From Rhodocyclaceae bacterium (lineage in GTDB: Bacteria; Pseudomonadota; Gammaproteobacteria; Burkholderiales; Rhodocyclaceae): DNA of 64,000 nucleotides. The stretch spans positions 1-64,000 of the forward strand of contig JAPKHL010000001.1 in assembly GCA_026646875.1 (NCBI GenBank), written 5' to 3'. The notes under the pieces are model-generated. The model had not been told where the DNA came from, did no database searches, and was given only the letters and a program-made list of their open reading frames with translations. Each line of letters begins with the position of its first letter. Position 1 is the stretch's first letter. Shown here one piece after another: positions 3,414-58,025 of the stretch. Made by a program: the position numbers and the translations under genes.

Positions 3414-3968
3414 TCAGCGCGGCAACGCGAGCCACTGCCGGAGCGTCGCCTCGTCGATGGCGCCGGAAACGGCGCGGCGGCCGCCGCGTCCATCGAACAC
3501 CAGCGTGCGCGGCAGTTCTCCGCGCCAGGCCGGATCGATGGCATGCGCCAGCGCCTCGGGTGCCTCGTCGCCGTAGGCATAGCGCTCGCCCGGCACGCCG
3601 AGCCGGTCGAGATGCTCGGCAATGCCTGCCCAGGCAGGTTCGGCGGCGACGGTCAGCAGGCGCGGTCCGCGCGGCTCGGCGGCCAGCCGGGCGAACAGCG
3701 CGAGGTTTTTCTTGCAGTGCGGGCAGTCGGTGCTCCACAGAGCCAGCACGGTCGGCCGCGCGTGCCGGGCGCCATCGGCGAGCTGGCGTGCCGTGTTCCG
3801 GTCGAGCGGGCGCAGTGCTTCGGCGGCGCCGCTCCCGGCGGTGGCCAGGCCCAGCGCCAGGGCCAGGAAGAAGGCCGGAAAAGTCAGGACGGGCACCCGC
3901 CGGGCGCCCGTTTTCCCGATCGTGGCGGGCGTGGTTTCATTCATCGCATCATTCATCGTGGCACTCAT
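3414..3968 (-). CDS. Thioredoxin-fold / TlpA-like protein with CPHC motif
   Basis: N-terminal hydrophobic segment followed by VLALWSTDCPHCKKNLALFARLA; 4-nt overlap with the upstream BNR gene. Confidence 0.7.
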   Translation of the reverse strand: MSATMNDAMNETTPATIGKTGARRVPVLTFPAFFLALALGLATAGSGAAEALRPLDRNTARQLADGARHARPTVLALWSTDCPHCKKNLALFARLAAEPRGPRLLTVAAEPAWAGIAEHLDRLGVPGERYAYGDEAPEALAHAIDPAWRGELPRTLVFDGRGGRRAVSGAIDEATLRQWLALPR

Positions 3969-5209
3969 CGCGGTTCGCTCGCCGCGTCGGGGGAGAGCGG
4001 GAACAGGCGCAACCCGTCGGCCTCGGTACGCCAGAAGGCGAACAGGGCATCGCCGTGGCGGATCACCCGTGGCTGGTCGGACGCGCGCTCGGTTGCGGCG
4101 AGCCGCCGGTGCGCGAACGGTGCACCGGGGGCGACGGCGATTTCGGCATGGAGCTGCGTCCGCTCGCCGTCGAATTCCTTCCAGACGATGGCAACCTGCT
4201 GCCCGGCGGCGCCGATGTCGGCGTGCGCGGCACGTTCGCCGCCGACGCTGCGCTGCGCCAGCACATGTCCCTCCGCGAGGCGGCCGTGGAAGACCCGGCC
4301 GCCCGCGGCCGCGCCGTCCTCGCCGGAGCGCTGGTTGAACCAGACGGCGTGCCGGGTGCCATCGGCGGTGACGGCCAGGGCGGGACCGTGATGCGGGCAG
4401 CCGTCGACGCGCCAGCGGTCGAAGGTAGCCCGCACGGGCGCGCCGGGGGTGCCGTCGGCGGCAATCGACGCCAGCGCGTGGTCGCGCTCGTTGGGGGCAA
4501 AGACGTGCCGCCAGAGCACCAGCGGCCGGCCGTCGACATCCAGCGCCGTGGCAATGCGGCAGCACTCGCAGGAATGGTCGGCAAGGCGCGTCTCACCGTG
4601 GAAACTGGCGCCGCCATCGTCCGAAACGGCGAAGTAGACGGCCGAGCCGCGATACGGACGGGCGGCGAGGCGCGCCGTCTCGCCGTCGCGCTTGTCGAGC
4701 CAGAAGACGTGGAGCCGGCCCTGCCGGTCGACGATGAGGCTCTCGAAGCTGTGGCCGATTTCCTGGCGGTCGCCATGGACGACGCGCGGCGCCGAGAAGC
4801 TGCGCCCGCCATCGTCCGAGCGGGCGATGCGCACCTCGCCGGCGTATTGCCGGCCGAGGCGGCGCGACCAGCTGACGACCAGCCGGCCGCCGGGCAGCGC
4901 GACGATCTTCGGCCGGTTTTCGCCATCGGCGGAAATCGGTTCCGCCTCGGCATTCACCCTCACCGGCGCGTGCCAGCTGCGTCCCCGGTCGTCGCTGCGA
5001 TGCAGCAGCACGTGGCCGCCCTCGACGAGAACGGCGAACAGCGTGCCGTCGTCGGCGAAGGTTGCCGTGGTGCCAAGCTGCGGCCGCTCGGGCCGCGCCG
5101 CGCGGGCGGGCGCTTCGGCGGCGGGGGCGCCATGCTGCGCGTGCGCCGCGCCGCCGGCAGCGCGGCGCACAGCAGCGTGGCGGCGAGCGTTGCCGCCAGG
5201 CCGCTCCAC
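3965..5209 (-). CDS. Sialidase-like BNR/Asp-box repeat protein; annotated frame lacks a signal peptide (see findings, probable frameshift; intended start near 5238)
   Basis: Asp boxes SDDRGRSW, SDDGGRSF, SDDGGASF; CECC motif. Confidence 0.7.
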   Translation of the reverse strand: MERPGGNARRHAAVRRAAGGAAHAQHGAPAAEAPARAARPERPQLGTTATFADDGTLFAVLVEGGHVLLHRSDDRGRSWHAPVRVNAEAEPISADGENRPKIVALPGGRLVVSWSRRLGRQYAGEVRIARSDDGGRSFSAPRVVHGDRQEIGHSFESLIVDRQGRLHVFWLDKRDGETARLAARPYRGSAVYFAVSDDGGASFHGETRLADHSCECCRIATALDVDGRPLVLWRHVFAPNERDHALASIAADGTPGAPVRATFDRWRVDGCPHHGPALAVTADGTRHAVWFNQRSGEDGAAAGGRVFHGRLAEGHVLAQRSVGGERAAHADIGAAGQQVAIVWKEFDGERTQLHAEIAVAPGAPFAHRRLAATERASDQPRVIRHGDALFAFWRTEADGLRLFPLSPDAASEPR

Positions 5210-5231
5210 GGAAGCCGTCGCGCCAGCCGGG

Positions 5232-7400
5232 CTACCATTTGGCCTGCACGCCGAGAATGGCGCTGCGCGCCGCGCCGATCGCGTATTCCGGCGCAGCGCC
5301 GCTGCCGCTCGCGGTTTCCGCGTACTTTCGGTCGAACAGGTTGGCGACGCTGCCGAACAGCGAGAGCGACTTGCCGAGACGGTAGTCGGCGCGCAGGTTC
5401 ACCAGGTCGTGCCCGGCGTACTTGCCGGTGTTCGCCTGATCGAGCCAGTAGCTGCCCAGGCGCACCCATTCGAGCTGCAGCTGGCCGCCGTTCATGAAGC
5501 CCGGCGTCCACGTCAGGCGCGTGTTGGCCAGGGTGCGCGGCGCCGCTTCCATTTCCTTGCCGCTGTAGTCGACGGTGCCGGAGACTTCCCACTTCTCGTA
5601 GGTATGCCGGGCGCGCGAGAGACTGACGTCGAGCCGCCAGTCGCGCGCGACGGCGAAGCCGGCAGCCAGTTCGATGCCGCGGTGCAGCGTCTTGCCGGCA
5701 TTCATCACCGTGCGCTGGCTGGTCACCGGATCGGTGTAGCTGACCAGATCGTCTTCCTTGGTCATGTGGTAGGCGGCGAGCTCGAAGGTGGTGTCGCCGT
5801 ACTTGCCGCGCACACCGATCTCGTAGTTGTCGACGACGACCGGCTTCAGCGAGAGCAGCGCCTCGGCGGCGGCCTGCGCCTTGGCCGCGGTCGCTTCGCG
5901 GCTGCCCCGGAAGACCTGGCTCTCGGACGGCGCGCGGAAGGAGTTGGCGTAGCCGGCGAAGGCCGAGAGCCGGTTGTCGAAGGCGTAGGTGGCGCCAAGC
6001 TTGGGGCCCCAGTGGCTGTAGCCGACGCGGGCGCTGGCGGCGTGGCCGAACCAGCCGTTGCCCGGGAAGGCGCCGGCCACGCCCTGGGTGGCGCCGGCGA
6101 CACCGCCGTTGAAGCGGTTGTCGTAGTCGTACTGCATGTCGTCGTAGCGCAGGCCGGCGGTGATGCGCAGCCGTTCGAGCGGCGAGATTTCGCCGTGGAG
6201 GTAGGGCGAGACGCCGCGATAGGTCACGTCGTACTCGTAGATCCGCCGCGCGGCGACACCGGTGTTCAGCCGGTAGGTGGTGCCGCCGAGGGCGTTGGTC
6301 GTCCGCTCGAGGCTGATCGAATCCTCGCTGCGCGAGCCCGGACTGTAGTCGATGTCGACGCCGACGATCAGGCGGGGCCGCATGGGACCGGCAAAATCCT
6401 TGCGGTACTTGGCGAGCAGGCCGAAGGACTGGTTGCGGGTGTCGTACTGGCTCGGATCGTAGCCGACCGACCAGCTGGGAATGATCCGCATGCGGTTGTC
6501 GCGCACGTAGGGCGTCAGCGACAGCAGGGAATCGGCCGATTCCCGCTCGTAGGCCATCGACAGGCGGAAGGCGTCGACCTCGCGGTACGAGAAGGGGATG
6601 TTGTTGGTGCGCGGGTTCCGTTCGTATTCGCCCCGGCTGAGCTTGCCGACATGCTTCTGGTCGACCTGCGAGAAGGCGGCCACGGTCTTCAGGATGGCCT
6701 GCCCGTCGAGCGCGCGGTCCCAGCGGAAGGTTCCGGCCTGGCGGTCGTAGCCGGCGGATTCCGACCCGCCGTCGGAACGGGTGGCGTTCACGCTGGCGCG
6801 CCAGGCATCGTCGCCATGGCTGCTGCCGCCGCTGGCCAGCAGGCGCGCCCAGCCGTCCGAGCCGGCCTCGCCGCTCAGCTCGAATTCCGGGCCGGCGGGC
6901 GGCGTGCGGGTGAGCACGTTGATGGTGCCGCCGATCGCGTCGGAACCGTACAGGGCGCTGCCCGGCCCCTTGCCGACCTCGATGCCGCCGGCCTGCGGCA
7001 CATTGACCTCGTACAGCGCGTTGTGATTGAAGAAACCGGTGGAGCGGGTGGGGATGCCATCCTCGAGGTAGAGATACACCGGGCTGGTGGTGAGCGGCTG
7101 CCGGATCGCCGTCGAATGCCCTTCGCCCGAGAGGTTGCTGACCCACACGCCGGGAATCCGGTTCATGGCGTCCTTCGGATGGGTCGGACGCAACTCGCGC
7201 AGGGCCTCGCCCTTGATCACGCCGACGCTCATCGGCGTCTCCGACAGCGGCCGCGCCTCGCGCGTGGCGGTGACGCTGACCTCGCCGAGGCTGGTCTCGT
7301 CCGTCCCGCTGCCGGCCCCGGCCGTTTCGTCGCCCGCGTGCGCCTGCGGCACGGCAAGCGCGAGCAGCAGCGCGAGGTGGCTGAAAGCCCTTCCCCTCAT
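5232..7400 (-). CDS. TonB-dependent outer membrane receptor
   Basis: Signal peptide, plug domain (GVWVSNLSGEGHSTAIRQP, GPGSALYGSDAIGGTINVLTR), long beta-barrel; ATG at 7400 has good SD spacing, alternative ATG at 7406. Confidence 0.9.
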   Translation of the reverse strand: MRGRAFSHLALLLALAVPQAHAGDETAGAGSGTDETSLGEVSVTATREARPLSETPMSVGVIKGEALRELRPTHPKDAMNRIPGVWVSNLSGEGHSTAIRQPLTTSPVYLYLEDGIPTRSTGFFNHNALYEVNVPQAGGIEVGKGPGSALYGSDAIGGTINVLTRTPPAGPEFELSGEAGSDGWARLLASGGSSHGDDAWRASVNATRSDGGSESAGYDRQAGTFRWDRALDGQAILKTVAAFSQVDQKHVGKLSRGEYERNPRTNNIPFSYREVDAFRLSMAYERESADSLLSLTPYVRDNRMRIIPSWSVGYDPSQYDTRNQSFGLLAKYRKDFAGPMRPRLIVGVDIDYSPGSRSEDSISLERTTNALGGTTYRLNTGVAARRIYEYDVTYRGVSPYLHGEISPLERLRITAGLRYDDMQYDYDNRFNGGVAGATQGVAGAFPGNGWFGHAASARVGYSHWGPKLGATYAFDNRLSAFAGYANSFRAPSESQVFRGSREATAAKAQAAAEALLSLKPVVVDNYEIGVRGKYGDTTFELAAYHMTKEDDLVSYTDPVTSQRTVMNAGKTLHRGIELAAGFAVARDWRLDVSLSRARHTYEKWEVSGTVDYSGKEMEAAPRTLANTRLTWTPGFMNGGQLQLEWVRLGSYWLDQANTGKYAGHDLVNLRADYRLGKSLSLFGSVANLFDRKYAETASGSGAAPEYAIGAARSAILGVQAKW

Positions 7401-7408
7401 GATCATTC

Positions 7409-54348: not shown

Positions 54349-54437
54349 GAGAAGTCCTCCGGGTAGAAGAGCACAGCGACGAGGTAGACGAAGACGCCCA
54401 CCGCGACGACGAGGGCAATCAGGTAGAGGGGATTCAT
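54345..54437 (-). CDS. kdpF: KdpF-type small membrane subunit (30 aa)
   Basis: MNPLYLIALVVAVGVFVYLVAVLFYPEDFS; overlaps the kdpA start. Confidence 0.8.
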   Translation of the reverse strand: MNPLYLIALVVAVGVFVYLVAVLFYPEDFS

Positions 54438-55607: not shown

Positions 55608-58025
55608 TCAGCTGCGTTTGCGGGAGTCGGTCTTCCGGGGCTTCGTTGCGACCGTCTTGGCGGTTTTCGCAGCCGCCTTCGGGGGCGCTTTCGGAGCCGC
55701 CTTCTTCGGACTCGACTTCTTGGTGCTCGCCGCCTTCGCGGTTGCCTTCTTCGCGGCCTTCTCCGGCGCGGCCGTTTTGCCCTTTCCCTTCGCCGCGTCC
55801 GGCGCCGCCTTGCCAGTACGCTCGGAGGCGGCCGGCACGGCCTGCGTGTCCGGCGGCAGCGGTGTGCCCAGGACGAAGTCGATGCGCCCGGATTCGAGAT
55901 CGGCACGCACCAGCTTCACGCGCAGACGGTCGCCGAGCCGGTAGCGCTTGCCGCTGCGCTCGCCGAGCATCTGATGCTTGACGTTGTCGTACTGGAAGTA
56001 GTCCTCGCCAAGCTCGGAGACGTGGACCAGCCCCTCCACATAGACCGTGTCGAGGGCGACGAACACGCCGAAGGGCACGACGGCGGCGATGGTGCCGGCG
56101 AACTCCTCGCCGATGCGATCGCGCATGTAATAGCACTTCAGCCAGTTGTTCACGTCGCGCGTGGCCTCGTCGGCGCGGCGTTCGGTCATCGAGCAGTGCA
56201 GCCCGATCTCGTCCCAGGCACCCGGGGTGTAGCGGCTGCCGTCGAGCACGGCCTTGATCGCGCGGTGCACCAGCAGGTCTGGATAGCGGCGGATCGGTGA
56301 GGTGAAATGGGTGTAGTGCTCGTAGGCCAGGCCGAAGTGACCGACGTTGTCCGGACTGTACTGCGCCTGACGCAGCGAACGCAGCATCACCGTCTGCAGC
56401 AGCTGGGCATCCGGGCGCGGCTTGATCCGCTCGAGCAGTGCGGCGTAGTCCTTCGCGGTGGGCTCCTCGCCCCCGGCCAGCGAGAGGCCGAATTCCTTGA
56501 GGAAGTTGCGCAGACCTTCCAGTTTCTCCGGCGTCGGCCCTTCATGCACGCGGTACAGGCAGGGCTGCTGGTGACGCTCCAGGAAGGCCGAGGCGCAGAC
56601 GTTGGCCGCCAGCATGCACTCCTCGATCAGCCGGTGCGCATCGTTGCGCACCACGGGGACGATGTTCTCGATCTTGCCCTGGTCGTTGAACAGCATCATC
56701 GTCTCGATGGTCTCGAAATCGATGGCGCCGCGCTTGCCGCGCGCCTTCAGCAGGATTCCGAAGAGGGCGTAGAGCGCCTGCAGGTGCGGCAGCAGGCTGC
56801 GGTGCGTGTCATTGTCCGGCTGTGCGGCACCGGACAGCCAGTTCCAGACCTGCGTGTAGGTCAGGCGCGCCTGCGAGCGGAACACCGCCGGGTAGAACTT
56901 GTAGGCCTTGATCTCGCCGCTGTTGCTGATGTCCATGTCGCAAACCATGGCCAGGCGTTCGACCTCGGGATTGAGCGAGCACAGGCCGTTGGACAGTTTC
57001 TCCGGCAGCATCGGGATCACCCGGCGCGGAAAGTACACCGAATTGCCGCGATCCCGGGCGTCGCGGTCGAGCGCGCTGCCCGGCTGCACATAGTGGCTGA
57101 CGTCGGCGATCGCCACCACCAGGCGCCAGCCACGCCCCTTCTTCTCGGCGAACACCGCGTCGTCGAAATCCCGGGCCGTCTCGCCGTCGATGGTGACCAG
57201 CGGCAGATCGCACAGATCGACGCGTCCGGCCCGGTCGCTCTTCTTCACCCGGGCCGGCAGGGCCCGGGTTTCCTCGAGCGCCTTCGCGGAAAATTCGAAG
57301 GGTAGATCGTGCTTGCGCAGCGCGATCTCGATTTCCATGCCGGGGTCGGCGTAATTGCCGAGCACCTCGACGATGCGGCCGATCGGCTGGGCATGCCGGG
57401 TCGGCTGTTCGATGATCTCGACCACCACCACCTGCCCGGCCGTGACCCGGGCCTTGCGGTCAGGCGTGACCAGGATGTCCTGGTTGATGCGGCGGTTTTC
57501 CGGCACCACGACCATGATGCCGTGCTCGATCAGCACGCGGCCGACCACCATGCTGTTGGCCCGCTCGAGCACCTCGACGATGGCGCCCTCGCGCCGCCCC
57601 TTGCGGTCAACACCGGTGACGCGCGCCAGCGCGCGGTCGCGGTGCAGCACCTTGGACATCTGCTTGTTGTCGAGAAAGAGATCGTCGCCGCCGTCGTCCG
57701 GGACCAGGAAGCCATAGCCGTCGGGATGCCCCTCGACGCGGCCGGCAATCAGGCTGGCGCGCTCGGGGACGATGTAGGCGCCCTTGCGGTTGCGCATCAG
57801 CTGCGCTTCGCGTTCCATCGCGGCCAGGCGGCGCTGGAACATCTCGACTTCGTGCGGGTGGATGTCGAGCAGCTGGCACAGGCGCTCGAAGCTCACCGGA
57901 CATCCCTGCTCCTCGAGCATCTGCAGGACGTACTCGCGCGAAGGCAGCGGTTGATCGTAGGTTTTGGACTCCCGCTCGAAATGCGGGTCGTTCTTTCTGA
58001 TTTTCGATAGTTTGCGTATTGACAC
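55608..58025 (-). CDS. rnr: Ribonuclease R with Lys/Ala-rich C-terminal tail (probable GTG start)
   Basis: RNB domain TIDGETARDFDDAVFAEKK, YFPRRVIPMLPEKLSNGLCSLNP; S1 domain; C-terminal KKATAKAASTKKSSPKKAAPKAPPKAAAK. Confidence 0.92.
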   Translation of the reverse strand: MSIRKLSKIRKNDPHFERESKTYDQPLPSREYVLQMLEEQGCPVSFERLCQLLDIHPHEVEMFQRRLAAMEREAQLMRNRKGAYIVPERASLIAGRVEGHPDGYGFLVPDDGGDDLFLDNKQMSKVLHRDRALARVTGVDRKGRREGAIVEVLERANSMVVGRVLIEHGIMVVVPENRRINQDILVTPDRKARVTAGQVVVVEIIEQPTRHAQPIGRIVEVLGNYADPGMEIEIALRKHDLPFEFSAKALEETRALPARVKKSDRAGRVDLCDLPLVTIDGETARDFDDAVFAEKKGRGWRLVVAIADVSHYVQPGSALDRDARDRGNSVYFPRRVIPMLPEKLSNGLCSLNPEVERLAMVCDMDISNSGEIKAYKFYPAVFRSQARLTYTQVWNWLSGAAQPDNDTHRSLLPHLQALYALFGILLKARGKRGAIDFETIETMMLFNDQGKIENIVPVVRNDAHRLIEECMLAANVCASAFLERHQQPCLYRVHEGPTPEKLEGLRNFLKEFGLSLAGGEEPTAKDYAALLERIKPRPDAQLLQTVMLRSLRQAQYSPDNVGHFGLAYEHYTHFTSPIRRYPDLLVHRAIKAVLDGSRYTPGAWDEIGLHCSMTERRADEATRDVNNWLKCYYMRDRIGEEFAGTIAAVVPFGVFVALDTVYVEGLVHVSELGEDYFQYDNVKHQMLGERSGKRYRLGDRLRVKLVRADLESGRIDFVLGTPLPPDTQAVPAASERTGKAAPDAAKGKGKTAAPEKAAKKATAKAASTKKSSPKKAAPKAPPKAAAKTAKTVATKPRKTDSRKRS

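Follow-up and report, generated by a model that had tools for sequence, protein, structure and literature searches.

An Asp-box beta-propeller gene in a draft Rhodocyclaceae genome lies one base out of frame with its signal peptide

In the TonB-dependent copper-receptor operons of Bordetella pertussis and its relatives, the receptor is accompanied by DUF2946 and, in a few cases, by PCuAC, according to two accounts (PMC9426467, PMC12914433). A second set of described proteins, the sialidase/BNR beta-propellers (GH33, PF13088), shares Asp-box repeats and, as far as a predicted structure can tell, a fold with the protein encoded by the gene described here. An AlphaFold model of positions 3968-5083 gives a predicted beta-propeller (mean pLDDT 92.8), and the solved folds closest to this model are those of Photorhabdus PLL/PHL-type lectins and of sialidases. 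The family differs from GH33/PF13088 in that it falls below the Pfam cut-offs, with BNR/sialidase scores just under them (27.7 vs 31.4; 26 vs 27), and in that it carries invariant cysteines and histidines in CxCC and CPHHG motifs.

The gene lies in the window, by which we mean the whole 64-kb stretch of DNA that was analyzed, on the minus strand, in a three-gene envelope operon at 3414-7406. The first gene of the operon encodes a TonB-dependent outer-membrane receptor of 724 aa (5232..7406; Pfam TonB_dep_Rec_b-barrel 4e-46, Plug 2e-15), the second the Asp-box (BNR) beta-propeller (open reading frame 3965..5209, its body intact from about 5143 downstream as judged from the ORF list, Pfam, and conservation), and the third an exported TlpA/thioredoxin-like protein (3414..3968), recognized in the sequence with its CPHCKK motif and without a Pfam hit of its own; the Asp-box stop and the start of the thioredoxin-like gene overlap as ATGA. 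An ATG at 5236..5238 overlaps the receptor stop in the string ATGGTAG (ATG 5238-5236, TAG 5234-5232), and orthologue phase marks this as the conserved start position of the family. Translation from this ATG gives MVARLARRLPWSGLAATLAATLLCAALPAARRTRSMAPPPPKRPP, which opens with a Sec signal peptide encoded by the stretch 5149..5238 (MVARLARRLPWSGLAATLAATLLCAALPAA; placed by translation and by the codon-usage path), and the frame then runs on as unrelated sequence until it stops at 4960. The Asp-box body is read from the frame one base back, where the first ATG, GTG, or TTG after the upstream stop is the GTG at 5209; the N-terminus that it would give, MERPGGNARRHAAVRRAAGGAAHAQHG, lacks a hydrophobic core, with a best hydropathy of 0.17 over 12 residues. 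An earlier note made from the same sequence had described each of these features, namely the ATG overlapping the receptor stop, the signal peptide that it opens, the unrelated continuation to 4960, and the Asp-box protein without a signal-like N-terminus in the other frame, and all four are confirmed. The signal peptide, which is in frame in this exported propeller family, is present in the window but one base out of frame in this assembly.

Orthologues were collected from GTDB contigs and from whole genomes of relatives, and after removal of duplicates 96 reached the N-terminus. A signal was counted where a hydrophobic stretch of 12 residues (score KD12) came after a start codon, both in frame with the mature domain. 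KD12 is at least 1.5 in 95 of the 96 distinct orthologues (median 2.38), compared with 0.17 in the window; the weakest orthologue (L084, 1.32) is still signal-peptide-like (ALGRLAAGAWLAAGPCGAALAQG). The comparison of orthologue N-termini, a check that the earlier note had proposed, finds the signal peptide in all 96, clearly in 95 and weakly in one. No orthologue lacked a frame-consistent N-terminal signal (0/96), none had signal peptide and mature domain in the split arrangement (0/96), and no frame-consistent export signal was found in the window gene. Of 28 receptor-linked orthologues, 25 keep the mature domain in one common phase with respect to the receptor stop, and in most of these an ATG or GTG overlaps that stop; the ATGGTAG of the window matches this design, with the mature domain off by one base. 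The three exceptions (L002, L025, L102) have their own downstream in-frame start and signal peptide, of which the window has neither. These three orthologues also show that a receptor-coupled start is not universal, and since they use other phases, the receptor-stop phase by itself is not decisive as proof. At the level of the sequence, phase and signal peptide combined do prove a frame break rather than a different N-terminus. A search for a near-identical genome returned a single congener, 54% identical in the Asp-box protein, and plasmid records held distant relatives only (<30% identity).

Codon usage points to the same break with no homology information: a Viterbi model trained on the window places 5157-5232 in the signal-peptide frame and reads 3973-5156 in that of the Asp-box protein, switching at 5156-5159. 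Together, the codon-usage path and the 96 orthologues with in-frame signals place the frame mismatch beyond chance. When the two frames were joined at each possible point and scored against a profile of orthologue N-termini, the score formed a plateau for joins at 5161-5146, with a maximum of 141.4 bits at 5149. The earlier note had suggested the C5 tract at 5123..5127 as one possible site, but a join there scores 134.9 bits, 6.5 below the best, which makes the tract a less likely location; the wider interval that the note had allowed, extending to about 5160, stands and contains the GGC repeat. The Asp-box frame is already orthologue-like at the residues HAQHG just past the join (from 5143), which puts the shift at about 5161-5146, upstream of the C5 tract. 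The deficit is thereby placed to about 15 bases, in a GGC-rich repeat (5146..5161, the likeliest interval by both the profile and the Viterbi switch) slightly upstream of that tract, and the junction sequence is also rich in inverted repeats. Orthologues, receptor-stop phase, codon usage, and the profile scan agree that one missing base parts signal peptide from mature domain, as the earlier note had proposed.

The anomaly is real in the sequence, and it is most likely an assembly artefact or a recent knock-out rather than new gene regulation. As to its cause, we infer that the one-base deficit is probably a sequencing/consensus or assembly indel. Compared with every relative, the propeller gene is one base short where signal peptide and mature part meet (about 5161-5146), which would then result from a consensus or assembly indel in GGC-rich sequence of a metagenome-type draft. 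In the living cell, the protein would probably be made as a single precursor, with its translation coupled to that of the receptor and its export by Sec. GGC motifs and inverted repeats have been described as inducing Illumina miscalls, but these motif errors are mainly miscalls rather than deletions, and GGC alone predicts errors poorly (PMC3622629). That description concerns Illumina, and this genome may have been sequenced on another platform.

The rest of the draft genome, which is of the metagenome type (131 contigs, 86.6% complete), bears on the choice between an error and a mutation. A scan for mid-gene frame switches covered 422 kb of it and returned 18 candidates, the majority of which proved on inspection to be gene ends or intergenic. 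Three of the 18 are clear mid-gene breaks of an unprogrammed kind: that in the window gene, that in a gene for a family-3 solute-binding protein (SBP_bac_3; L107, contig C3, about 3305, plus strand) at a C10 run, and that in truB (L124, contig C20, about 10480, minus strand), whose TruB_C_2 domain is divided between two frames, positions 1-16 in the first and 22-66 in the second. The C10 run may be an error or a slippage locus. Because truB is conserved and has no reason to vary, its break favors assembly or sequencing indels as the general cause. Against this, three breaks per 422 kb is a low rate, based on the one draft genome scanned, the 64-kb window shows no second break, and the truB and SBP_bac_3 breaks may be real mutations as well. 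Within the window, a break that the Viterbi model flagged at 55746 was rejected, since it falls in the tail of an RNase R-like protein, which is rich in Lys and Ala and stays in frame up to the stop, and a junction near 54351 belongs to kdpF/kdpA-like genes and is no break; candidates on L106, L103, and L111 are, by inspection, gene ends or intergenic stretches. Elsewhere, a coding segment at about 6790 of L120 (contig C16, minus strand) appears by inspection to turn abruptly into a part resembling the C-terminus of enoyl-ACP reductase, possibly a chimeric join. Overlapping frames at about 295 of L126 (contig C22, plus strand) look by inspection like those of an IS3-type transposase, which normally uses a programmed frameshift, and their recovery is a sign that the scan can pick up such shifts.

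A real and recent loss of one base, which would keep this strain from exporting the Asp-box protein, is a possible explanation, though clearly a less probable one than a sequence error. Under such a deletion, translation from 5238 would yield a short out-of-frame peptide and any product from GTG 5209 would stay in the cytoplasm. The deletion is present in the sequence as given, short GC repeats are natural slippage sites, the Asp-box gene is single copy in its genome, and the other frame breaks in the genome may be real as well. The state of the operon speaks against it. Among the 83 positions that at least 93% of 87 sequences have in common, the window protein differs at 5, and it keeps all conserved cysteines and histidines of the CxCC and CPHHG motifs, including the invariant C172, C174, C175, C229, H231, and H245. 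By these measures the propeller body looks functional, with no decay, so any real mutation must be recent; the operon partners are likewise intact, and the broken housekeeping gene truB in the same assembly points to assembly indels.

Readings in which the split is real and used by the cell fare much worse. We consider it very improbable that export of the propeller is conditional, through low-frequency frameshifting or slippage at the GGC repeat; such a split would amount to an unusual on/off switch for protein export, governing a receptor-associated, possibly copper-related, periplasmic protein. For programmed -1 ribosomal frameshifting that unites both frames, the required direction is indeed -1 and the signal frame stays open for 180-odd bases beyond the junction, so that a shift is geometrically possible, but by eye no X XXY YYZ heptamer occurs in the signal frame from 5163 to 5110, the minimum free energy of the downstream RNA is no better than that of shuffles (z = +1.28), and 0 of 96 orthologues are split. 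Phase variation, in which repeat slippage would toggle export, could draw on the GGC-rich repeats at the junction, signal-peptide junctions being plausible targets, yet no tandem repeat reaches a score of 30, the longest run is C5, and the 96 orthologues include no off-state. With no heptamer, RNA structure, tandem repeat, or split orthologue to support them, both mechanisms are highly unlikely. Of the four causes raised in the earlier note, assembly error is thus favored and a recent real indel is possible, while phase variation and programmed frameshifting are unsupported. The least credible reading takes the GTG 5209 protein as a genuine cytoplasmic variant without a signal peptide, for although it is the longest open reading frame of the domain and the likely choice of a gene caller, all 96 orthologues are of the exported type, its operon neighbors are a receptor of the outer membrane and a thioredoxin-like protein that is itself exported, and upstream of 5157 it is the other frame that matches the codon usage.

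The preferred reading, an indel in the sequence, has consequences for annotation. Gene callers would start the protein at GTG 5209 and list it as cytoplasmic and sialidase-like, with 414 residues, although the family is exported. The frame breaks in this draft also mean that genes which seem to be lost elsewhere in it call for caution.

The surroundings of the orthologues offer some indication of what the operon may do. Of the 62 orthologous loci that span at least 8 kb, 54 have the end of a TonB receptor gene no more than 450 nt upstream, 55 have a thioredoxin-like gene no more than 400 nt downstream, 22 contain relatives of DUF2946, and 19 contain relatives of the PCuAC copper chaperone. In the operon of the window itself, no gene immediately upstream was recognized as DUF2946 or PCuAC. 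Because DUF2946 and PCuAC accompany the copper-receptor operons of Bordetella and its relatives, one may reasonably guess that the propeller family has a copper role, either in acquiring the metal or in the maturation of cuproproteins. A copper-related function for an operon of receptor, CxCC/CPHHG propeller, and thioredoxin is suggested by these neighbors, and the portions of the literature examined contain no description of one; the searched text of PMC12914433 makes no mention of a sialidase-like propeller or a thioredoxin.

Two comparisons place the locus among known systems. The crtA/bfrG copper operons (PMC9426467, PMC12914433) combine a TonB-dependent receptor with DUF2946 and, in a few cases, PCuAC, as do some orthologous loci of the present family, but their usual partner is a PepSY_TM protein, unlike the operon in the window. 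The receptor-linked orthologues of Aromatoleum, Azoarcus, Thauera, and other Betaproteobacteria (for example, L024, L034, L026, and L050) have the same gene order as the window and the same start overlapping the receptor stop. Orthologues of the Aromatoleum/Azoarcus/Thauera type share the mature domain with the window at 54-64% identity and, unlike the window, encode signal peptide and mature domain in one frame.
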